This document shows positions 192-21,809 of a stretch of DNA of 42,524 nucleotides, one piece after another. The DNA comes from Candidatus Saelkia tenebricola (GTDB lineage: Bacteria > Omnitrophota > Gorgyraeia > Kaelpiales > Kaelpiaceae). Each line of letters begins with the position of its first letter. The first letter of the stretch is position 1. The DNA lies in assembly GCA_030765145.1 (NCBI GenBank), contig JAVCDA010000057.1, positions 1 through 42,524 on the forward strand, written 5' to 3'. A program made the position numbers and the translations under genes. The notes under the pieces are model-generated. The model saw nothing but the letters and a program-made list of their open reading frames with translations, searched no databases and was not told where the DNA came from.

Positions 192-383
192 TTAAAACGA
201 GAAGAGGTGGGGGTGGTAAACAGCACAATATTTAAGGAGCAATTGAGGTATACCGCCATGCTTCTCTATCAAGTGCTTTACTAAAATATCTATTGAGCCC
301 CCTGAATTAAATAGATGGAGTCCTAATTTGCAATGCTTCTCAATATATGTTAATACTTTATTAGGAAAAGAGGGGGCATATAT
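192..383 (-). pseudogene. Open frame without a start codon; possible gene remnant
   Basis: The 66-406 stretch has no confident gene. Its minus strand stays open for 63 codons between stops at 384-386 and 192-194. The translation looks protein-like: it begins near APSFPNKVLTYIEKHCKLGL and contains GGSIDILVKHLIEKHGG, with alternating hydrophobic and charged residues. There is no ATG, GTG or TTG near its beginning, so it is not a normal complete gene. It may be the C-terminal remnant of a gene interrupted next to the tRNA, or simply a chance open frame. I do not recognise the family. Nothing else is evident between 67 and 190. Confidence 0.3.
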
Positions 384-430
384 TTAAAAATCTAATTCTA
401 TTAAGTTTGTCGTGTTATTTCTTGCAGATA

Positions 431-1687
431 ATGCCTGCATATTCTTTATCATCTAATATCACTAGAAGAGTTAAATCTTCTCAATTTGAGGTTACATCAA
501 TGCATGGTTTCGCCATGGCTATATTTAATAGATTTGGTTCGGAGCAATTTACTATGAAAGAAGCCCAGGAAGTTTTAGATAATAAAAATCCTTATTATTC
601 ATTACAGTTACTCTCTGATGCTGGAGTTCTTGAAGCGTATAAACCTGGTCTACGTAAAGAAAACCTTTATCGTCTTATTCCGCCTTTTAGTTATTCTGAA
701 AATAATCTAAAACTGTTATCTTTTATTCCAGAATTTCAAAATAAAACAGTTAGTTCTAAAGACTTTACTGATGAATTGATCAGCAGTGCTAGAGCTAACG
801 TTAACGTTGTAAAAGAAGCGATTGGATTATTTGATAAAGGTGTTTTTGATATTTCGCTTTTAGGTGAATTGAGTCAGCATGAGGAAATTAAGTTTCAATT
901 TCTTATGGGCGTGATATCGCAGGATTTAGTAGGTCTTTATAAGACGTTTTCCAAGATTGAAATTAGAAATGCTGGCCTAGATCCTAAGGTTAATATAGAT
1001 TATAATGCAGTAAATAATTCACTCATGATATCGCTTCCAGGATATCCTTTTGATTTTGCGTATGAAGATGATAGGGCGTCACTATTACTAATGAAAACAA
1101 TGGGAATTGGTGTAGATTTAGATTCTTTAGAAATTCGAGCTGACAATATGTGGAAGTGGATAGGTACCCCAGAATTTAAGAGAGAGTTAATTTATGCTGT
1201 TGTACAAGGAGATATAATGTTCGAGGCTTTATTGACGCCTCTTGAAGGGCTTCTCTTGGGTAATTTGAGGGTTTCAATTGCAACGTTACCATTGCCTGAA
1301 GAAGTAGACTGTATTGATTTTCTTGCAAATATCGTCGAGTTTAGAAATCATTCTTCAATTAAACAAGTATATCGAGAATTTCTTAATGTTGAAAAAGAAA
1401 TATTGAAAATTAAATTGCAAGCTATGGATCAGTTAACGTTTGATGAGAAGAAAATTATTGTTTTAAAATATGGGTTAGAGGATGGGCAGATGAGGACAAC
1501 AGATCAAGTTGCTGAAATTCTTCAGTTATCTATAGAAAGGGTTCGGCAGATAACAATAAGTGCTCTTGAAAAAATAAGGGATCGAGGATTTTTAGAAGAG
1601 ATTGAAGAGCAATTAATTCCTTATCAAGATCAACTTAGAGAAGCTTTAGAGATGTTATATCAAGAGCTGCTAAAAATAAATCCTTAA
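431..1687 (+). CDS. Winged-helix-like protein with C-terminal sigma-70 region 4
   Basis: The C-terminus (roughly 50 residues before a 33-residue tail) reads as sigma-70 region 4: LTFDEKKIIVLKYGL, then a helix-turn-helix ending in the family signature ERVRQI and ALEKIRDRG. No sigma region 2 or 3 is visible in the preceding ~330 residues, so this is not a complete sigma factor. The N-terminus (AIFNRFGSEQFTMKEAQEVL, then SLQLLSDAGVLE) resembles a winged helix. The middle is unrecognised. The start is uncertain: the frame opens at TTG 407, ATG 431 has no clear Shine-Dalgarno, and ATG 500 has GAGGT seven bases upstream. It is probably a DNA-binding regulator that may contact RNA polymerase; its targets are unknown. 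It stands alone, with 240 bp before the next gene. Confidence 0.72.
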   Translation: MPAYSLSSNITRRVKSSQFEVTSMHGFAMAIFNRFGSEQFTMKEAQEVLDNKNPYYSLQLLSDAGVLEAYKPGLRKENLYRLIPPFSYSENNLKLLSFIPEFQNKTVSSKDFTDELISSARANVNVVKEAIGLFDKGVFDISLLGELSQHEEIKFQFLMGVISQDLVGLYKTFSKIEIRNAGLDPKVNIDYNAVNNSLMISLPGYPFDFAYEDDRASLLLMKTMGIGVDLDSLEIRADNMWKWIGTPEFKRELIYAVVQGDIMFEALLTPLEGLLLGNLRVSIATLPLPEEVDCIDFLANIVEFRNHSSIKQVYREFLNVEKEILKIKLQAMDQLTFDEKKIIVLKYGLEDGQMRTTDQVAEILQLSIERVRQITISALEKIRDRGFLEEIEEQLIPYQDQLREALEMLYQELLKINP

Positions 1688-1939: not shown

Positions 1940-2647
1940 ATGGGAAATCTAAAGATTAAAGGGATTGTTTTATTTATGTTAGGAATTTTTCTGTCTCTAC
2001 CTAATTTTGTAGAGGCCAGAAGAATTAAACAGCCTTTAACAAGTATCAGGCTTGAAATGGCGATACGCGTTGAATCGTTTCCTCAAGTGATTCGCACTCA
2101 TTTTGCAGGCTTATTAACGAGCGAGGAAGAGGTTTATATATCTGGACTTGATTATGGAGCAGGTGATGGTGAGAAAACAATAATTATCAAGGCAACCTTA
2201 GAGGATGTTTTTGGGTTCGGCTATGTTTCGTTCTGGGGTATAGACCACGGTGAACTTTGTACAAACAGTGAAAGTGCATTAAGAATTGGGGTTCAGAGAA
2301 TGGACCTAAATGATATTTCCGATAATAGCGGTATGCAGGGCAGGATGGATATAATAACGATATTTGCTCCAGCAGGTGCCTTGGGTTTCTTCGTTGAGAC
2401 AGCAAAAAAGATGATACATCCAGATGGCTTAATTGTAGTTGCACTATATCACCCCGAGATGCTTGAACTTTTCCAGGATAGAGCTCCTTTAGGATTCTGG
2501 GCACCAGAAGAGCTATTAAAGGAATTAACCGGATTTACCTTTATACGTTTTAATAGCGATGAAGGATGGTCTAAAGGGAGAATAGTGCCGCAAGGATATT
2601 GTGCGTTTATCTATTCTCCAAATGGATTAAAAATAGATGAATTATAA
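1940..2647 (+). CDS. Exported methyltransferase-fold protein with signal-RR N-terminus
   Basis: Residues 1-26 form a signal peptide: a basic start, a hydrophobic core, then VEA followed by Arg27-Arg28. The mature part has a class I SAM-methyltransferase-like pattern: a glycine-rich loop GLDYGAGDGEKT, a following strand with GIDHGELC, then a strand (MDIITIFAPAG) and HPDGLIVVALY, matching the usual motif I, motif II and post-motif order. The acceptor substrate is unknown, and an exported SAM-dependent enzyme would be odd because SAM is cytosolic. The start is uncertain: the frame opens at TTG 1928, and ATG 1940 is preferred although AGGGG lies 14 bases upstream. It is followed within 15 bp by a second gene of the same exported type. 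Confidence 0.6.
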   Translation: MGNLKIKGIVLFMLGIFLSLPNFVEARRIKQPLTSIRLEMAIRVESFPQVIRTHFAGLLTSEEEVYISGLDYGAGDGEKTIIIKATLEDVFGFGYVSFWGIDHGELCTNSESALRIGVQRMDLNDISDNSGMQGRMDIITIFAPAGALGFFVETAKKMIHPDGLIVVALYHPEMLELFQDRAPLGFWAPEELLKELTGFTFIRFNSDEGWSKGRIVPQGYCAFIYSPNGLKIDEL

Positions 2648-2661
2648 AAGTTTTATGGATA

Positions 2662-5319
2662 ATGAAATATTTTAAGGTAATTATTTTATTTATAGTGGGA
2701 GTTGTTTTATTTTCTTGTCCTGTAGATGCAAGACGAATTCATACCAGTAGTACTATTGAGGTTATTTCTAATCGTAGCTCTGCGTTACCTAGTAAACTTG
2801 TTATAGCAGTATTTGATGTTCATGGAACTTTGCTTGAGCCTACTTGGAAACAGGAGTATGGAGATACCTATAGAGCTTGTACAGGTAGGGATGATGTTGA
2901 AGAATGGATAGATTTAAATGCTTGGAGTAAATCAACAACCGAGATTCTTAATCTTATAGCCGAGGTTTCAGGTAAAACAATTGAAGACGTTGAAGAGATA
3001 TACGCTTCTTTTTATGAACATTATAGAGCTGATAACCTAGCAGAAGCTAAACCCTATACTTTAGATATCTTAAGAAGTTTAAATGAGCAGAATATACCAA
3101 TAATTATAATTACTGGTAGTAGTAAAGATGTGATATTAAGGCAACTTGATGAGGCTGGGCTTCTTCAATATATAAACATAGAAAATGTTATAAGCCAGGG
3201 AGATTTAGAAAATAATTTAGGGCGAGAGATAGATAGGCGAGAGGTCTTTAGATTTTTGCAAAATAGATTATCAGATTATACCTTTGCTTATTTTGATGAT
3301 TGGAACAGAGGTATGCAGCAAATAATTACAGAAGGTGGCATAGTCTTTGGATTACCTCAGGGTGAGTTCGAAAGCGGAGAGTGGTTTAAGAATAGGAATC
3401 TACATATTGCATCTGGTGCAAACTATATTCTTAATGGCTGGTCTGGATTTCAAGATGTAGTGAACATATTAACAGCAAATGAGAGTTTAGCAGTAGATAT
3501 TGAACAGATTGAGGTTGGTCAAGACTTAATTGAAGAATTTACTCAAGAGTTATCTATTGCTCAAGATAGAGTAGTTAACATAGAGGTTTTTGTCGCAGCT
3601 AATAGAGGGCGTGATTTTACAGTCTATACTCGCTTAATGGGTGCTGCAACTTATGCAAAAGCCGATGCTACATTTCCTTATTTCCCAGAGTTTCAGGAAG
3701 GAGATGTAATAGTTGATGCAGGTTCTGGAACCGGAGAGCTTGCGGAGCTTATGGCACTTGAATTTAGAGGTGTAAGGGTTATAGAACTAGATATATCTCA
3801 TGAACTTCAGGAGAGGGCATCTGAAAATCAGACATTAACGGAGCTTGTTTACGGAGATGCTCAAGAGATTAATTTTCCACCTGGGTCGATAAAACTTAAA
3901 TGTTATTTTACAGTTGGCCATGAGATCGAGTCTTTTGGAGGTAGCATGGAAATAGCCCTTAGTAATACCTTTGTTGAGTTAAAACCAGGTGGCCGTATTA
4001 TTGTAAGAGATTTTGTTATACCTTCTAGGACAGAGCCTTTATATATGAAGCTGGATTCAACTGATGGTTTGAATGCATTACCAGAAGGGTTAAGTTCTGA
4101 TGGTATTGATTATAGTACGTTGTCAACTAGAGCTCTATTCGATAGATTTTATCAAGAGTTTGGAGATGGGGAGGCATTTGAATATGAGTCAGTTATGATT
4201 GATGGAGAGGAGTATATAAAGATAGCTCCTGAATGGGCATATGAGTTCTATATGCGAAAAGATTATACCGCAAACTGGCGTAATGAGATAAAAGAGAAGT
4301 ATGGATATTGGAGTCTTGAAGAGGCTGAGAACACTCTAATTGGTTTAGGTTATGAGAATATAAGAGCAGTTCCAGAATATAATGATTGGATAATAGGCAA
4401 TCGTCTTAGAGGTCAGATCGGATTATATGAAATCAATGAAGACGGATTGCTCTATGAAGTAGAATTATCGCCTACCCATATGATTGTTGTAGCAGATAAG
4501 CCTTTAATTGATTCAGAAGTAGGTGGTCAAATAGGTACAGAAGGTGCAATTGATGTTATAAATTATCAGAATCTATTTGATTCTATTACGATTGATAGCG
4601 AGAGAGGCATAGTTAGAATAGATGACAACGAGTTTTTAGTAGATATGGATTCAGTTAAGATAAGCTCTAAACATGTTGTTTTTGAACTTAAAGATAGAGA
4701 GGGTTATGTTCTAAAAATTGTACGATCGGATACCAGGAGCGCTCATAATGTATTTAAATCAATGTATCAGATTGTAGAGCGTCAGGATATATTAGATGAA
4801 TTTGGTATTCCTTATCTTAAGGTAGCTGAATTTGATACCGCAGGGCCACCTTATCGTTATGTCGTACAAGAAGCGGCTCTTGAAGGGTCTATATCAGCTG
4901 CAGATCTAATTTTAAATGGAGAGTTATCCGAAGTAGATATATTGCAGATAGCGGAGATAGTCAATAGATTTGAAAAATCTAAACAGTATCAATTAAATAT
5001 GAACCCTTACGCTTGGTATAGAGTTAAAAATGATGATGGGACTACTCAGATGGTCTATTTTTCAGGGATAGTATATCTCTATGATGAGAGATGGGAGTTT
5101 AGGTATATAGGTTTAATGCAGTGGATAGACAAAAAATATTTAGAAGGGGCAGAGGATTATAGAGCTGTTGTACCTTCTATAAATGAGTATAGAGAGTTTT
5201 ATAGCTATGACTGGCTAGACTCTAGCAGCGATCCTATTAGAGTATGGAAGAAGTATCTAGATAAAGCTGTATGGCCAATCGAGAGAATATTAAAGATAGA
5301 TAGCAATGAAGATAATTAA
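2662..5319 (+). CDS. Exported fusion: HAD fold, class I methyltransferase, kinase-like domain
   Basis: 885 aa. Residues 1-23 are a signal peptide ending VDA, followed by Arg24-Arg25. About 45-270 is a HAD hydrolase fold: motif I is FDVHGTLL (nucleophile Asp52 present, the second Asp replaced by His54), motif II is IIIITGSS and motif IV is YFDDWNRG. About 345-475 is a class I methyltransferase with VIVDAGSGTGELAELM and LKPGGRIIVRDF. About 665-860 resembles an aminoglycoside-phosphotransferase or protein-kinase fold with a VLKIV lysine near 684 and a VVQEAAL hinge, but no clear HxD or DFG motif, so it is probably inactive. It overlaps the next gene by 14 bp, so the two are translationally coupled. 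The domain calls come from motifs, and the overall function is unknown. Confidence 0.72.
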   Translation: MKYFKVIILFIVGVVLFSCPVDARRIHTSSTIEVISNRSSALPSKLVIAVFDVHGTLLEPTWKQEYGDTYRACTGRDDVEEWIDLNAWSKSTTEILNLIAEVSGKTIEDVEEIYASFYEHYRADNLAEAKPYTLDILRSLNEQNIPIIIITGSSKDVILRQLDEAGLLQYINIENVISQGDLENNLGREIDRREVFRFLQNRLSDYTFAYFDDWNRGMQQIITEGGIVFGLPQGEFESGEWFKNRNLHIASGANYILNGWSGFQDVVNILTANESLAVDIEQIEVGQDLIEEFTQELSIAQDRVVNIEVFVAANRGRDFTVYTRLMGAATYAKADATFPYFPEFQEGDVIVDAGSGTGELAELMALEFRGVRVIELDISHELQERASENQTLTELVYGDAQEINFPPGSIKLKCYFTVGHEIESFGGSMEIALSNTFVELKPGGRIIVRDFVIPSRTEPLYMKLDSTDGLNALPEGLSSDGIDYSTLSTRALFDRFYQEFGDGEAFEYESVMIDGEEYIKIAPEWAYEFYMRKDYTANWRNEIKEKYGYWSLEEAENTLIGLGYENIRAVPEYNDWIIGNRLRGQIGLYEINEDGLLYEVELSPTHMIVVADKPLIDSEVGGQIGTEGAIDVINYQNLFDSITIDSERGIVRIDDNEFLVDMDSVKISSKHVVFELKDREGYVLKIVRSDTRSAHNVFKSMYQIVERQDILDEFGIPYLKVAEFDTAGPPYRYVVQEAALEGSISAADLILNGELSEVDILQIAEIVNRFEKSKQYQLNMNPYAWYRVKNDDGTTQMVYFSGIVYLYDERWEFRYIGLMQWIDKKYLEGAEDYRAVVPSINEYREFYSYDWLDSSSDPIRVWKKYLDKAVWPIERILKIDSNEDN

Positions 5320-5584
5320 AAATATTGGGTTGTTTGTCGTATTAGTACTGTTCTTTGTTTCTAATTTTGCTGATGCAAGAAGAGCGAAAAGCAACAGTAT
5401 TTTATTAGCCGTTAATCATTATAGGGCTATATTAAATCAAGATCCTAGAAATGAGTTGCTTCTTGGCAATTTAATAGAACAATTAAGGAGCGTGGATGCT
5501 GAGGAGGCTTTAACTGCATCTTTAGTATTAATGGTTTCTCCAGAGAGAATAAATTGTAGCTATGTGTTTAAAGTTAAGGTTTGA
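5306..5584 (+). CDS. Small exported protein with the same signal-RR N-terminus
   Basis: 92 aa. Residues 1-24 are a signal peptide ending ADA, followed by Arg25-Arg26, the same arrangement as the two upstream genes. The rest includes SILLAVNHYRAILNQDPRNE, which resembles a helical TPR-like repeat, then a leucine-rich helix. It is short compared with its neighbours and ends abruptly after FKVKV, so it may be a truncated member of a larger family. The ATG overlaps the 3' end of the 885-aa gene, so it belongs to the same operon. Function unknown. Confidence 0.55.
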   Translation: MKIIKNIGLFVVLVLFFVSNFADARRAKSNSILLAVNHYRAILNQDPRNELLLGNLIEQLRSVDAEEALTASLVLMVSPERINCSYVFKVKV

Positions 5585-6311: not shown

Positions 6312-6338
6312 TTGGACAAAACAAAATGGAGGTGTATT

Positions 6339-7556
6339 ATGAAAGAACTAATGAAAGCAAAGGCTAAGGGCCTCAGAGAGTCACTGGCGAAGTTTTCCGA
6401 AAAGATCGAAAGTTTTGAACTCATGCCTTCAAATATGGGTGAGTTTACGGATCTTATTTTATCCGAGATGAGATATCTGGGATTTGACAAAGTTATCAAG
6501 GATAAGGCTGGCAATTTGGTAGGCGTAATAAAAGGTTACGGTAATAAGGATGCCATTGCTATGGTGTCGCACATTGATATTATGACACCAACACAACAAA
6601 AACTGGAAGTTATTAGTAATAGTGGGATAGCAAAGTTTAGATCCGGAGTTATCTCAAGTGTTTATTCGGGTGCCCTAATGAAAAGAACCATGTTACCCAT
6701 GACCGGCGATTTGATAATTTGCTGTGTGCCCAGGATTGAATGTTGTGATTTCGGCATCAAATATCTTTTTGATGATTTTTTAAAGGATAGGATCAAAAAG
6801 ATTAAAGGTGTAATACTTTGTGAGCCTACCGATTTTAATATCAATCTAGGGCATAAAGGAAGGATGGAATACGAAATAGTGGTCAAAGGCAAATTGAATA
6901 GGAATTTTCTGGAGAATCGCGGGATGAATATGCTTAGCACGATGTTTCCTTTGATAAGCGAATTAGCGAAAGTGTCAAAAGAGCTGCCAAGCGATTTTAA
7001 TTTAGGGCGTTCCGGTCTGAGAATAAAGGATGTGCGTTATAGCGGATATCAGCCGCAGGATGAGGTAAATGAATTCCGGATAGTTGTTGATAGGGTGTTT
7101 ATACCTGAGGAAACCGAAGGTTATATTTTGAATAAAGCCAAGACAATTGCAAAGACCGTATATAAGCAAGAATCAGATGTTACGGTTAATGCACTTTTGA
7201 CAAAGGAGAGGGTAAAAACACATACAGGGCTTGAACTGGTATCTGCAAAAGAGTTTAAACCCTGGTTTATGGAGAGCCATCAGCCTTTTGCTTTAGAATC
7301 GCTCAAAAGTTTAACTGAAAACGGATTCAAATCGAATTTTGGATATTGGAAAAAGATTGTAACGGAAGGCTCTTACACTTACGCGCAGCTTAAAATACCA
7401 ACAATAGGATTTGGCGCAGGATCAGAAGATAATCTAGATTCAAATACCGGTTCTTTAGGCTTGGATAAGCTTGAGAAAGCTTTCTATGGTCAAGCATTGA
7501 TCGTTCAGAGGAATATAGGTATGCCTACATTTGGATGGAGCTCTGGTGAAATTTAA
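6339..7556 (+). CDS. M20-family hydrolase-like protein with altered metal ligands
   Basis: 405 aa. It resembles the YgeY-type M20 metallohydrolases: the first metal motif is intact (His78 and Asp80 in MVSHIDIM), and the interface region has EPTDFNINLGHKGRMEYEI, as in that group. The second metal-site Asp region, usually GxSDMKGG, reads RSGVISSVYSGAL, so the Asp is missing. The usual acidic pair is replaced by RIECCD, and the C-terminal His motif is replaced by GAGSEDNLDSNTGS. It is probably inactive as a standard di-zinc peptidase or has changed chemistry. The ATG has a strong GGAGGTG four bases upstream, and I reject the earlier TTG at 6312. The 3' end overlaps the next gene. Confidence 0.72.
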   Translation: MKELMKAKAKGLRESLAKFSEKIESFELMPSNMGEFTDLILSEMRYLGFDKVIKDKAGNLVGVIKGYGNKDAIAMVSHIDIMTPTQQKLEVISNSGIAKFRSGVISSVYSGALMKRTMLPMTGDLIICCVPRIECCDFGIKYLFDDFLKDRIKKIKGVILCEPTDFNINLGHKGRMEYEIVVKGKLNRNFLENRGMNMLSTMFPLISELAKVSKELPSDFNLGRSGLRIKDVRYSGYQPQDEVNEFRIVVDRVFIPEETEGYILNKAKTIAKTVYKQESDVTVNALLTKERVKTHTGLELVSAKEFKPWFMESHQPFALESLKSLTENGFKSNFGYWKKIVTEGSYTYAQLKIPTIGFGAGSEDNLDSNTGSLGLDKLEKAFYGQALIVQRNIGMPTFGWSSGEI

Positions 7557-8781
7557 GAAGAAAACAGCTAGCATACTTGTAATTAATTGCGGAAGTTCAT
7601 CCTTAAAGTATAAGATAATAAGGATGCCGGATGGCGATGAATTAGTCTGGGGAGAGGCTGAAAGGGTGGGCATCAAGACGCAAAGCGCTTCTATTGTTAC
7701 GCATTCAGTCCTTGGTAAAAAGAGAATGATTGAGGCGTCACTTCTGGATCATTCGGCTGCGCTTAAGAAAGTGCTTGAGTTGATAGCTGATGATTCAAAG
7801 AAAAATAAAGATATAAAGTTCGATATTTTTGCTCATCGATATGTCCACCCGGGAATGTTTTTTACTCGGCCTACGAAGGTCAATCAAGCCGTTTTAACAA
7901 AACTGAAAGAAACATTGCCACTCGCAGCTATCCATAATCCAATAGTCTACAAATTGCTTGAATTTTGTCATCATGAGTATTCTTCTATAAATCAATTTGT
8001 TGTATTTGATACGACGTTTCATAAAACTATTCCTCCCGAGTTTGCTGTTTATGCTCTTCCTCTTAAAGTTATTAAGAAATACGGTATCAGAAAGATTGGT
8101 TTTCACGGCATATCTCATCGATATGTAATGGAAGAGGTTTGCAAGTTTCTTAATAGAGCTCGATCTACGCAAAAAATAATAAGCTGTCATTTGGGTACAG
8201 GCGGATCGAGCGTTTGCGCAATAAGCGACGGGAGATCTGTAAATACTTCAATGGGATTTACACCGCTTGAAGGATTGATGATGAATACCCGCTCAGGTGA
8301 TATCGATCCCGGAGTGATATTTTATATAATGTTTAAAGAACGTTTTTCTCCGGAAGAGACTGAGAATATCTTGAATAATAAAAGCGGTATTCTTGGGGTA
8401 TTTAATACATCATCGGATCTAAGAGATGTTATTAAGGATATAACTACAAATAAAAAAGCAAAAATGGCATTTGACATGTATGTACGCAGGGTAAGGGCAT
8501 ATATAAGTTTTTATTCTCTTATATTGAAGAAACCGGATATTTTGATATTTACAGATTCGCTTGGAGTGGGATCGCCCATATTGCGACAAAGCATTTGTAA
8601 GAATATGGGATTTTTAAGTCTAAGTATAGACGAAGATAAAAATGTCGAATATGGCAACGGTATAAGCGATATATCAGTGTCTAAATCTGAAACGAAAATT
8701 CTTGTGATTCCTACGAATGAAGAGATTATGATTGCAAGAGAAGCTTATAAGGAGTTGATAAAAAATGATACTGGTTATTGA
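7546..8781 (+). CDS. Acetate kinase homologue with altered nucleotide-site motifs
   Basis: 411 aa, the normal AckA length. Conserved elements include ILVINCGSSSLKYK at the N-terminus, HNP, VFDTTFHKTIPPEFAVYALP, KIGFHGISHRYV, SMGFTPLEGLMMNTRSGDID and the C-terminal IPTNEEIMIARE that carries the metal-binding Glu. Two differences stand out. HLGNG is HLGTGGSS, with the active-site Asn changed to Thr. The adenosine-site loop, usually GGIGENS, is DSLGVGS. It may use another acyl group or phosphoryl donor. No phosphotransacetylase gene is nearby. The GTG start has GGAG five bases upstream and overlaps the M20 gene's stop, indicating coupling. Confidence 0.82.
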   Translation: MKFKKKTASILVINCGSSSLKYKIIRMPDGDELVWGEAERVGIKTQSASIVTHSVLGKKRMIEASLLDHSAALKKVLELIADDSKKNKDIKFDIFAHRYVHPGMFFTRPTKVNQAVLTKLKETLPLAAIHNPIVYKLLEFCHHEYSSINQFVVFDTTFHKTIPPEFAVYALPLKVIKKYGIRKIGFHGISHRYVMEEVCKFLNRARSTQKIISCHLGTGGSSVCAISDGRSVNTSMGFTPLEGLMMNTRSGDIDPGVIFYIMFKERFSPEETENILNNKSGILGVFNTSSDLRDVIKDITTNKKAKMAFDMYVRRVRAYISFYSLILKKPDILIFTDSLGVGSPILRQSICKNMGFLSLSIDEDKNVEYGNGISDISVSKSETKILVIPTNEEIMIAREAYKELIKNDTGY

Positions 8782-9838
8782 TTATAATCTAAAAGATATA
8801 AAAGTATGGGCTTTTAAAGAAAAGTGCGATGAACTGTTCGCATCTCGCTGTATTCAAAATGTCGATGAGATAAAAGATGACGAAGCCCTCAAGAAGATCA
8901 TTCGTATTATTACCGGTAAAGAAAAGATTAAAGCTATCTCATTCAGAATATTATTCGGAGGAAATTATTTTAATAAGCCAACGCTTGTTGACGTAAAGTT
9001 TTTTTCACACTTTGAAAATTTAACGGATTCTTTCCCTTTTTATGTGCCGTTAATGTTGGAGATGTTGAAAAGATTCCAGAAAATATTCAAAAACACGCCT
9101 CTTATAGCTTTTTTCGAAACTTCATTTTTTTTGAAATTGCCTGATGAGGAGAAATATTATGCCCTGCCGTTTGATTATCATCAGAATAATAAAATAAAGA
9201 AATGGGGATTTCACGGTATATTTCATGAAGCAAATGTAAATATCTTCCCCAAAGTCGACAAAAATATATCTATAGTATTTGATAAGCAAACCACAGTATG
9301 CGCTGCTTGTAATAATAAGCCTCTTTCTGTGAGTTTGGGATATACGTCACTGGAAGGTGTTATGTCCAGAACTAGTTGTGGACATTTGGATCCAGGCATA
9401 ATATTTTACCTTATGAATGTTCATAAGTTCTCTATCTACGAAATTGATGAAATGCTGAAGAATAAAAGCGGCTTTGTGGGGCTTACGGGCTATGATATCG
9501 AATTAAAAGATATGCTGAAACTGCGTGGCAAGGATGCTAAGGTTGATCTTGCATTTGACGTTTATCTGGCTCAGATACTGAAATATATAGGCAATGGGAT
9601 ATCAGTTATGGGAGGGTTGAATAATATTGTTTTTGCCGGTAACAACGCGGGCGTATTTATTCCGATAATTCATGACGTTATCAAAAAGATATCATTTTTA
9701 GGAATAAATACTATAAGTTTGCCATGGTCTGAAGATAAAGAAATAATTGATATTACTTCTGTGGAGTCTAAAATTAAAGTATATATTAATAAAATGGATC
9801 TTGCCAAAGTTATCTTTCACAAGAGCGAGCTTTTTTAA
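8765..9838 (+). CDS. Degenerate acetate-kinase homologue (likely pseudoenzyme)
   Basis: 357 aa, about 50 shorter than AckA. It aligns through FETSFF (AckA has FDTAFH), KWGFHGIFHEA, SLGYTSLEGVMSRTSCGHLDPGIIF, LKNKSGFVGLTG and VFAGNNAG. The N-terminal NCGSSSLK phosphate loop is replaced by IDYNLKDIKVW, the catalytic Arg in TRSGD is replaced (TSCGH), and the C-terminal PTNEE metal motif is absent. It probably cannot catalyse kinase chemistry. It may partner the upstream active-type copy, since AckA is a homodimer. The ATG has AAGGAG ten bases upstream, and the gene overlaps the upstream gene by 17 bp. The intact long frame argues for selection, not decay. Confidence 0.78.
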   Translation: MILVIDYNLKDIKVWAFKEKCDELFASRCIQNVDEIKDDEALKKIIRIITGKEKIKAISFRILFGGNYFNKPTLVDVKFFSHFENLTDSFPFYVPLMLEMLKRFQKIFKNTPLIAFFETSFFLKLPDEEKYYALPFDYHQNNKIKKWGFHGIFHEANVNIFPKVDKNISIVFDKQTTVCAACNNKPLSVSLGYTSLEGVMSRTSCGHLDPGIIFYLMNVHKFSIYEIDEMLKNKSGFVGLTGYDIELKDMLKLRGKDAKVDLAFDVYLAQILKYIGNGISVMGGLNNIVFAGNNAGVFIPIIHDVIKKISFLGINTISLPWSEDKEIIDITSVESKIKVYINKMDLAKVIFHKSELF

Positions 9839-20015: not shown

Positions 20016-21026
20016 ATGGAAAACTTGACAATTAAAGACGTAGCTAAGAAAGCAGGTGTTTCTATTGCTACCATATCCAGGGCATTGAATCCGGAAACCA
20101 GAAATACGGTAAAACTGGAGACTGTACAAAAGATTCAAGATGTTGTTACGGAATTAGGATATTTGCCTAATAATATTGCAAGTTCTTTGCGCAGAAGAAA
20201 ATCTAAAACTATCGGTTTTCCCTACAATTTTCAAAAAGATGTAACTTCAGGTTATGTATCAGGTATCTTAAGCGGAGTGCTCAGAGGATTAAATGAAATC
20301 GGATATGGTTTAAAATTGATGCCTGTAAAAGATACCCATTCGCTCTTGGCATTGATAGATAAGCAGGGAATCGATGGGATAATTTTTACCCATGCTTCGT
20401 ATATAGAATATTCACACTTAGAAATAAATGAAAACGCAGAAAAAATATTGCCGGTAGTTGTAATCAATGATTCTGACTCTAATCAAGGAGTTAACCGATT
20501 ATATGTTAATAGTTATGACGCCAGTAGAACTATGGCAGAATATGTGTTAAGAAAAAGTGGTCCAAAAGTTTTTATAATAGGCGGAAATCCTGATGATGTT
20601 GAATCAAGGTTGAGGAAGGCTGCGTTCTTGGATGTCTTAAGAGAAAAAGAAATGCAATTTTCTGAGCATAGATATCTTGATGGAAAGTTTAGTGAGCAAG
20701 GAGGATACGAAGCTTCCAAAACGGCATTTGAAAAAGAACCGGAATTCCGGGGTGTGTTATATTGCTTAAACGATGCTATGGCAATAGGGGCGATTCGAGC
20801 TGTCGGGGAATTAGGGTTGCATTGTCCGGGAGATATTAAAATTATTGGTTTTGACGATGTATTTCAAACAGAATTTACCAACCCCCCATTGACTACTATG
20901 CGTTTTCCTTTATCCAATATGGGGCATGAAGCTGTTATGTTAATTTATAGAATATTGAAGGGAGAGATAAAGCAATACATCAAAAAAGAGTTTCCTCACG
21001 AATTAATTATCAGAGCTTCCTGTTAA
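20016..21026 (+). CDS. LacI/GalR-family transcriptional regulator
   Basis: 336 aa, standard length. The N-terminal helix-turn-helix and hinge read TIKDVAKKAGVSIATISRAL and VQKIQDVVTELGYLPNNIAS. The periplasmic-binding-protein-like effector domain includes GIIFTHASY, VFIIGGNPDDVESRLRKAAF, GVLYCLNDAMAIGAIRAVGE and IKIIGFDDV. The effector is probably a sugar or related small molecule, but no sugar genes adjoin it and the regulon is not evident. An operator over its own promoter implies autoregulation. Its 3' end overlaps the convergent kinase-like gene by 24 bp. Confidence 0.95.
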   Translation: MENLTIKDVAKKAGVSIATISRALNPETRNTVKLETVQKIQDVVTELGYLPNNIASSLRRRKSKTIGFPYNFQKDVTSGYVSGILSGVLRGLNEIGYGLKLMPVKDTHSLLALIDKQGIDGIIFTHASYIEYSHLEINENAEKILPVVVINDSDSNQGVNRLYVNSYDASRTMAEYVLRKSGPKVFIIGGNPDDVESRLRKAAFLDVLREKEMQFSEHRYLDGKFSEQGGYEASKTAFEKEPEFRGVLYCLNDAMAIGAIRAVGELGLHCPGDIKIIGFDDVFQTEFTNPPLTTMRFPLSNMGHEAVMLIYRILKGEIKQYIKKEFPHELIIRASC

Positions 21027-21809
21027 GCCTATATTCTGTAATTTTTCTAATTCCTCTTGATATGATGAATGAAACATATTAAGGACTTGTTCTCTAAAAT
21101 CCGGATCGTTATGAAAAATGCTGGGAATAAACCAGCTTCTTATTTGAATTTCAGGACTTGCGCAAGCTCTTCTGCCGAAATCAATAATTGTGATTTCTTC
21201 CCGTTCTAAATCAATAATAGTGTTGTAGTATAAAAAATCTTCATAACGGATGCCTGCATGCTTTAAGCGGGCGAGTTTAGTTGCAAGCTGTGTAATAATC
21301 CAGGGATTCTCTTTTATTATTTCAGCTCCATTTTCTTTAACACATATCTTGCTTAATTTTTCACCTTCAAAATACGGATATACCATATAGCCGTCAACCA
21401 ATGCATGGGTTTTATATTCACTTGGAATAAATTTAGCCGGGTTAGGGGCAGCCTTTATCAAGGATGCTTTTTGAAAATCCAGTGCTTCTTCTTCAGTTAT
21501 TGGTTTTACAATTATAGTAAGAGTGCCTTTGTTTGTTGCCACGCTGAATTCATAAGCTCCCCAGCTTTCTTCCTCAGTTCTGTTATAATCACCTTCTAAG
21601 TATTTTATTTCGGTAATGCTATGAATTTCAGTTACACCAGGTAGTGTTAATATAAGCTCGGCGAGATGTTGATTAAGTGTCTTAACAGAATGATCTTCGG
21701 CTTGAAAAAACTCCAGATTAAAATCGCGTGTTCTTCTGCTGTAACTTGGAAATTGGGAACTTAAAAGAAATACAAAGATTAAGACAATCGTTTTGACCGT
21801 TATCGGCAT
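21003..21809 (-). CDS. Exported kinase-fold protein with Ser-Arg-Arg after the signal peptide
   Basis: 268 aa from ATG 21809 (GGGAGGG lies five bases upstream; the frame opens 15 bp earlier). A signal peptide (VKTIVLIFVFLLSSQFPSYS) is followed by Arg25-Arg26, as in the exported proteins at 1940-5584. The mature part resembles a small aminoglycoside-phosphotransferase or protein-kinase fold: a lysine strand LTIIVKPITEEE, a hinge HALVDGYMVYPYFEG, a catalytic-loop-like RYEDFLYYNTIID (Asp then Asn, without the usual His) and EITIIDFGRRA, matching DFG. The N-lobe is not clearly recognisable. An ATP-using enzyme outside the cytoplasm would be unusual. It lies 62 bp downstream of the helicase gene. 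Confidence 0.62.
   Translation of the reverse strand: MPITVKTIVLIFVFLLSSQFPSYSRRTRDFNLEFFQAEDHSVKTLNQHLAELILTLPGVTEIHSITEIKYLEGDYNRTEEESWGAYEFSVATNKGTLTIIVKPITEEEALDFQKASLIKAAPNPAKFIPSEYKTHALVDGYMVYPYFEGEKLSKICVKENGAEIIKENPWIITQLATKLARLKHAGIRYEDFLYYNTIIDLEREEITIIDFGRRACASPEIQIRSWFIPSIFHNDPDFREQVLNMFHSSYQEELEKLQNIGLTGSSDN

Follow-up and report, generated by a model that had tools for sequence, protein, structure and literature searches.

The lipoprotein export signal (LES) of Bacteroidota carries an acidic motif of the K-(D/E)2 type. This short charged motif follows a signal peptide, close to the start of the mature protein, and adds a surface address to Sec export (PMC5080379). Here, we describe a leader of comparable layout, a Sec-type signal followed by an Arg-Arg (RR) motif, which is encoded repeatedly in a 42,524 nt stretch of the genome of Candidatus Saelkia tenebricola, a member of the Omnitrophota (contig JAVCDA010000057.1, positions 1 to 42,524; the whole stretch is called the window). 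In contrast to the LES, which occurs on lipoproteins with a Cys at +1, it has no +1 Cys, carries Arg-Arg, and has a promoter element of its own. The RxLR/PEXEL signals of oomycetes and Plasmodium likewise consist of a signal peptide and a subsequent Arg-containing motif on many unrelated, clustered proteins (PMC1464399). However, they belong to the eukaryotic secretory pathway, and in them the motif comes after the signal peptide, whereas the RR motif lies at the cleavage site; the motifs RR-[IV]-K and R-[LI]-[TV]-R described below are superficially alike to theirs, the layout alone is comparable, and no shared ancestry is claimed. Type III effectors are known to arise by terminal reassortment, in which recombination joins a 5' secretion-signal segment to new 3' coding parts (PMC5675462, PMC7406222). 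The RR leaders resemble them in this respect, but their signal looks to be of the Sec type, and no type III apparatus was seen in the sequence that was read, where none was sought. Lastly, giant secreted proteins are a published trait of Omnitrophota (PMC10066038); they are also exported and cysteine-poor with odd cargo, some of them, in other families, holding GAPDH, PGK, enolase and aldolase domains, but those whose N-terminus was read have ordinary signal peptides without RR, whereas the RR cargo is encoded by separate, smaller genes. No paper on such a leader was found in the literature. The system differs from twin-arginine translocation (Tat), from lipoprotein/LES signals, and from the other named signals that were tested, and it belongs to the kind in which a signal peptide is combined with a second sorting motif.

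Our preferred interpretation, which we hold to be rather probable, is that four, and probably five, genes of the window form part of a family-specific export regulon characterized by this leader. The window is one of 88 contigs (G000:C85) of a 1.63 Mb genome with a completeness of 98% and a GC content of 35%. An initial annotation of the window had pointed to three tandem genes and a distant fourth in which a hydrophobic core is followed by RR, and all four were found as described. The first gene (1940–2647, plus strand, 235 aa, 3.4% Lys) is preceded by a 24 bp promoter/5' untranslated region (5'UTR) element, TATATGGCATACTTTATAAAGAGG, at 1900–1923 on the plus strand, where the cassette starts. 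Its leader (1940–2017) has the sequence MGNLKIKGIVLFMLGIFLSLPNFVEA and is followed by RRIK, with the Arg-Arg codons at 2018–2023; an in-frame TTG at 1928 is an alternative start. The second gene (2662–5319, plus strand, 885 aa, 3.7% Lys) starts with MKYFKVIILFIVGVVLFSCPVDA, encoded by 2662–2730, and continues with RRIH (Arg-Arg at 2731–2736), and in the third (5306–5584, plus strand, 92 aa) the leader MKIIKNIGLFVVLVLFFVSNFADA (5306–5377) precedes RRAK (Arg-Arg at 5378–5383). The fourth gene is on the minus strand (21003–21809, 268 aa); its leader MPITVKTIVLIFVFLLSSQFPSYS (21809–21738) is followed by RRTR, with Arg-Arg at 21737–21732.

The functions that had been proposed for the mature parts of the tandem genes were recovered in part. 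The second gene had been described as a fusion of HAD, methyltransferase and kinase domains. Pfam assigned a HAD hydrolase and a class I S-adenosylmethionine (SAM) methyltransferase to it, while the C-terminal third remained without assignment and the kinase was not confirmed. The first and third genes, described as a methyltransferase and a small TPR-like protein, had no Pfam match; the methyltransferase-like motif GLDYGAGDGE of the former was recognized by eye only, and the TPR nature of the latter found no confirmation. The fourth gene also had no Pfam match, and showed a weak match to Bud32 kinase and, by eye, a DFG-like IDFG motif. Single-sequence AlphaFold models of genes 1 and 4 had confidence scores (pLDDT) of 41 and 48, and were not used. 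The probable fifth member lies upstream of the first gene and encodes a protein with a sigma-70 region-4 domain (380–1687, plus strand). Its membership is deduced from the motif: the leader IFKNLILLSLSCYFLQIMPAYSLSSNIT is followed by RRVK, with Arg-Arg at 464–469. The start of this gene is uncertain, being either ATA 380 after AGAGGGGG, in which case the hydrophobic stretch ends with SSNIT before RRVK, or TTG 407 (open reading frame (ORF) 407–1687). The tandem may thus comprise four members. An exported sigma-like protein with a possibly non-standard ATA start would be very odd.

The initial annotation had called for a comparison of RR at positions +1/+2 with other signal peptides. Signal peptides were called with a purpose-built predictor that was blind to +1/+2, and the genome statistics were computed on sampled stretches, which comprised 478 kb of the own genome (a first sample of 289 kb and a second, unseen sample of 189 kb) and, as the control for RR counts, 350 kb drawn from 15 further families within the class. 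Of the 31 AxA signal peptides in the first sample, 12 had RR at +1/+2; with the window left out, the count was 9 of 27. None of the 36 AxA signal peptides of the controls had it. The proposal of a dedicated signal, which a frequency no higher than in other signal peptides would have contradicted, withstood this comparison also after both samples were pooled (12/41 versus 0/36, Fisher p=2.5e-4). When AxA was no longer demanded, RR[IVLATSM][KRHQN] was found soon after an N-terminal hydrophobic segment in 20 of 87 ORFs, versus 2 of 107 in the controls. A chance origin of the RR excess was ruled out by these two comparisons. The KK version of the motif occurred in a single one of the same 87 ORFs, RK variants occurred occasionally (L063:1333, L288:2891), and Arg-Arg was encoded by 23 synonymous codon pairs. 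The near absence of Lys-Lys and the diversity of codon pairs argue for selection at the protein level. A contaminant contig was also ruled out, as RR genes were found among housekeeping genes as well (L016 next to MurA/RuvB-like and L009 next to purH-like genes, named by eye).

Reading of the five family genomes yielded about 96 distinct leaders, which fell into two classes. In the short class (70 leaders), AxA-like residues directly precede RR; residue −3 is A, V, S, T, G or C in 68 of the 70 (residue −1 was part of the selection), and 69 of the 70 n-regions contain one to five Lys or Arg, mostly two or three. The short class therefore has the layout of a Sec/signal peptidase I (SPase I) substrate, with a positive n-region, a core, and small residues at −3 and −1. 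In the long-linker class, AxA is not found just before RR, which is mostly located 10–23 residues past the core, often after L, C or T. Overall, the linker between core and RR spans 3–23 residues, and the consensus is RR-[I/V/T/S]-[K/R/H/Q], so that positions +3 and +4 of the motif are conserved as well. The initial view that RR is bound to +1/+2 thus applies to the short class and fails for the second class. As RR is not fixed at +1/+2, it is a motif of its own. Tat signals were rejected since RR follows the core in all 96 leaders, an order that the scan required, and no twin Arg precedes the core in the four window leaders. Lipoprotein and LES signals were rejected since +1 of the short class is Arg and not the lipobox Cys.

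The distribution of the leader was analyzed with a hidden Markov model built from 61 leaders. It matched 33 sites in the own genome (E<=1). The other two near-complete family genomes had 32 and 37 matches, and the two partial ones had 9 and 8. The initial annotation had suggested a profile search across the Omnitrophota, and in our sample of 285 genomes of the phylum this family was the only one with more than one match per genome (E<=0.001). Seven genomes outside the family had one match each, one of which is a true ARR leader. These comparisons demonstrate, at the level of sequence, that the motif is conserved as protein and restricted to the family at genome scale. In a genome of another family of the same class (G017), homologs of the cargo show R-[LIMV]-[TVI]-R in the position that RR has here, with the instances FRLTR, LRITR, FRLVR, SRMVR, ARVVR and ARVIR (L290:412-4868, L308:1-6113, L317:5502-8042). 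In 224 kb of G017, 28 ORFs have a hydrophobic N-terminus and 6 of these carry the motif, compared with 2 of 100 in the own genome and 1 of 74 in the controls; as homology had led to two of the three clusters, the G017 rate is biased upward.

A subset of the leaders is shared as DNA. A common 5'UTR, TATATGGCATACTTTATAAAGAGG..TTGGTACAAAATATG, followed by common leader codons, is found at eleven loci, which belong to two genera (one with G000, the other with G001 and G003). The mean pairwise DNA identity amounts to 0.62 for the 5'UTR, 0.66 for the leader and 0.64 for the RRxK codons, and it drops to 0.30 directly behind them. The 5' similarity ends abruptly after RRxK and the 3' parts are unrelated, which is the pattern of terminal reassortment. 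Judged from these comparisons, the cassette has demonstrably spread in part as promoter-plus-leader DNA that was recombined onto new 3' parts. Seventeen copies of the element with at most three mismatches were detected in 20 genomes, all of them in this family, and the reversed control yielded none. Sixteen of the copies precede RR leaders of both classes, and the 17th is located before a decayed leader. This decayed cassette, at L063:4205-4340, consists of the element and the leader start MKKIGVIGAILFILGIRITAIA, a stop codon, and then a 522-aa ORF. LexA-like proteins (named by eye) are encoded beside RR clusters in three genomes (L056:206-874, L062:525-1196, L054:3572-4240), and they could regulate the common promoter element.

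The mature parts of the RR proteins are poor in lysine, acidic, and poor in cysteine. Lys accounts for 4.2% of the residues (4.3% in the long-linker class), versus 9.5% in cytosolic proteins (p=4e-12) and 7.9% in ordinary exported proteins (p=7e-6) encoded by the same genome. The net charge per 100 residues is −5.9, compared with +0.5 and −3.3, respectively, and the Cys content is as low as that of ordinary exported proteins. In G001 and G003, the same was seen relative to cytosolic proteins, and the contrast to ordinary exported proteins was less pronounced (p 0.07 and 0.02 in small samples). GC bias was ruled out as the cause of low lysine, as GC and GC3 are equal to those of other genes and Ile and Asn are unchanged. 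Composition was too weak as a classifier for export (area under the curve 0.77). Salt-exposed proteins are acidic and lysine-poor, too. Low lysine is also reminiscent of toxins that avoid ubiquitination after entry into the cytosol of eukaryotic cells (PMC4030972, PMC6769291). Our data favour neither the salt-exposure nor the toxin-like parallel.

The cargo is diverse; a set of 74 proteins comprised about 49 mature families, including 32 singletons. Methyltransferases, HAD, GNAT, a histidine-kinase ATPase domain, arginase/UPF0489-like proteins, TPR, HEAT, GatZ/KbaZ aldolase and 6-phosphogluconate dehydrogenase (6PGDH) were found, and the long-linker class carries phosphofructokinase (PFK), a double GAPDH, and a UDPGP-phosphoglucomutase (PGM) fusion. 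Judged by inspection of sequences and alignments, the catalytic motifs are apparently intact (GAPDH, SCTTN and HALTKDQ; 6PGDH, GHFVKSVHNGIEY; PGM, TASHNP and DADGDR), and GAPDH, PFK and PGM also have ordinary cytosolic copies. PFK and the double GAPDH with RR leaders are encoded in tandem (L212:4059-5807 and 6317-8785, G000:C30), beside an 878-aa methyltransferase-like protein of the RR type. As an unbiased check, searches were performed with mature PFK and UDPGP-PGM, and they recovered RR-leader genes arranged in tandem, both in G003 and in G001; a fragmentary contig of G004 contains an RR-leader 6PGDH adjoining a PFK fragment that is cut off at the contig end. In exported GAPDH, CRRVQT is kept between G000 and G003 at an overall identity of 26–37%. 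The family restriction, the preference for Arg over Lys, the private promoter element, the lysine-poor mature parts, and the RR on homologs that were found via their mature parts together lend good support to the RR motif as a putative dedicated signal, as had been suggested at first.

The leader consists of an n-region with Lys/Arg, a short hydrophobic core, an AxA site or a longer linker, and the RR motif. The chain would be exported by the ordinary Sec translocon, and cleavage near the motif would be due to SPase I or, for the long-linker class, to a different peptidase. Outside the cytoplasm, the exposed Arg-Arg would be read by a putative receptor or an Arg-specific processing protease, and the reading would route the protein past the ordinary periplasmic pool. 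The final address might be the cell surface or another cell, either prey or partner, which could explain the export of enzymes that need ATP, SAM or NAD(P). Arg is the residue that slows Sec transport most and is rate-limiting (PMC9110029). Retention of two Arg despite this cost implies a benefit, and the exclusion of Lys argues for specific reading of the motif and against an effect of charge alone. The switch between RR and RxxR in different families would favour a protease-like pocket, and the conserved +3/+4 together with the short class would favour an address. Several observations weigh against a dedicated export signal. The second sample of the own genome contained no RR at +1/+2 among 10 AxA signal peptides, because RR genes cluster in islands. 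Sec export is expected to be slower with a positive charge just past the cleavage site (PMC9110029), and the cargo cofactors ATP, SAM and NAD(P) are not expected outside cells. Each genome has one SPase I, one full SecA, and three or four secretins, as do relatives, so that no dedicated machinery was found; a clostripain-type C11 protease was not found, SPase I and C11 proteases being the only ones counted. Of the sorting, processing or anchoring role that was initially proposed, the dedicated signal thus received support, and its role may be any of the three; neither a receptor nor a protease was found.

It is possible, though we propose it tentatively, that a mobile promoter-plus-leader cassette captures metabolic and regulatory genes and turns their products into lysine-poor effectors, which are exported, enter another cell and have RR as their address, with RR being switched to RxxR in a related family. 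Equally tentatively, the cargo of such a delivery system would include PFK, GAPDH, 6PGDH, PGM, kinases, methyltransferases and a sigma-like factor. It is unlikely that RR is simply the P2-P1 site of a kexin-like protease and that the processed protein is then secreted. The R-[LIMV]-[TVI]-R on homologous cargo in G017 resembles the RR/RxxR switch of kexin/furin-type sites, and the variable distance of RR from the core is also consistent with processing, but in the short class a cut after RR would remove just two residues past the SPase I site, +3 and +4 are conserved too, and no candidate protease was found, C11 being absent. Quite unlikely is also a reverse signal anchor, in which the hydrophobic stretch stays in the membrane (N-out/C-in) and RR-x-K, by the positive-inside rule, keeps the enzyme at its cytoplasmic side. 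Cytosolic-type cargo with cytosolic cofactors and the slowing of Sec transport by Arg (PMC9110029) would fit such an anchor. However, Lys would serve as well and almost never replaces RR, the n-regions are themselves positive (mostly two or three Lys/Arg), the −3 residue is small in 68 of 70 short leaders, a linker of 3–23 residues separates the core from RR, and the mature parts are poor in Lys and Cys, in contrast to cytosolic proteins. That RR is functionless and was merely inherited with a copied 5' cassette is very improbable. Near-identical 5'UTR and leader DNA in a subset of genes would fit such an inheritance, but most leaders are dissimilar in DNA and keep RRx[KRHQ] alone with 23 codon pairs, the motif is kept between orthologs of 26–37% identity, and both classes agree in composition.

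If the interpretation as a dedicated export signal is true, the RR motif would be a new N-terminal sorting signal for non-lipoproteins, distinct from Tat, lipobox and LES, and would allow the exported proteins of an uncultured lineage to be listed from sequence. The suspected dependence of Omnitrophota on hosts or prey would become testable via named proteins. In other families, GAPDH, PGK, enolase and aldolase domains occur in giant ORFs of 2,000–14,650 aa, and the N-termini that were read are ordinary signal peptides without RR. Exported glycolytic enzymes with RR leaders in one family and giants in others raise the question of the role of cytosolic-type enzymes outside cells. One 2,991-aa ORF with an ordinary signal peptide (L241:5983-14958, G125:C80) contains two GAPDH, phosphoglycerate kinase, enolase, and class II FBP aldolase, so that a single, apparently exported protein combines much of lower glycolysis. 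An ORF of 14,650 aa (L247, L248, L250; G076:C8) has two GAPDH-like regions and hardly any cysteine. Within the window, positions 7549–9835 contain two neighbouring genes of the acetate-kinase family, the second of which is strongly diverged (3.8e-47 versus 2.5e-111).

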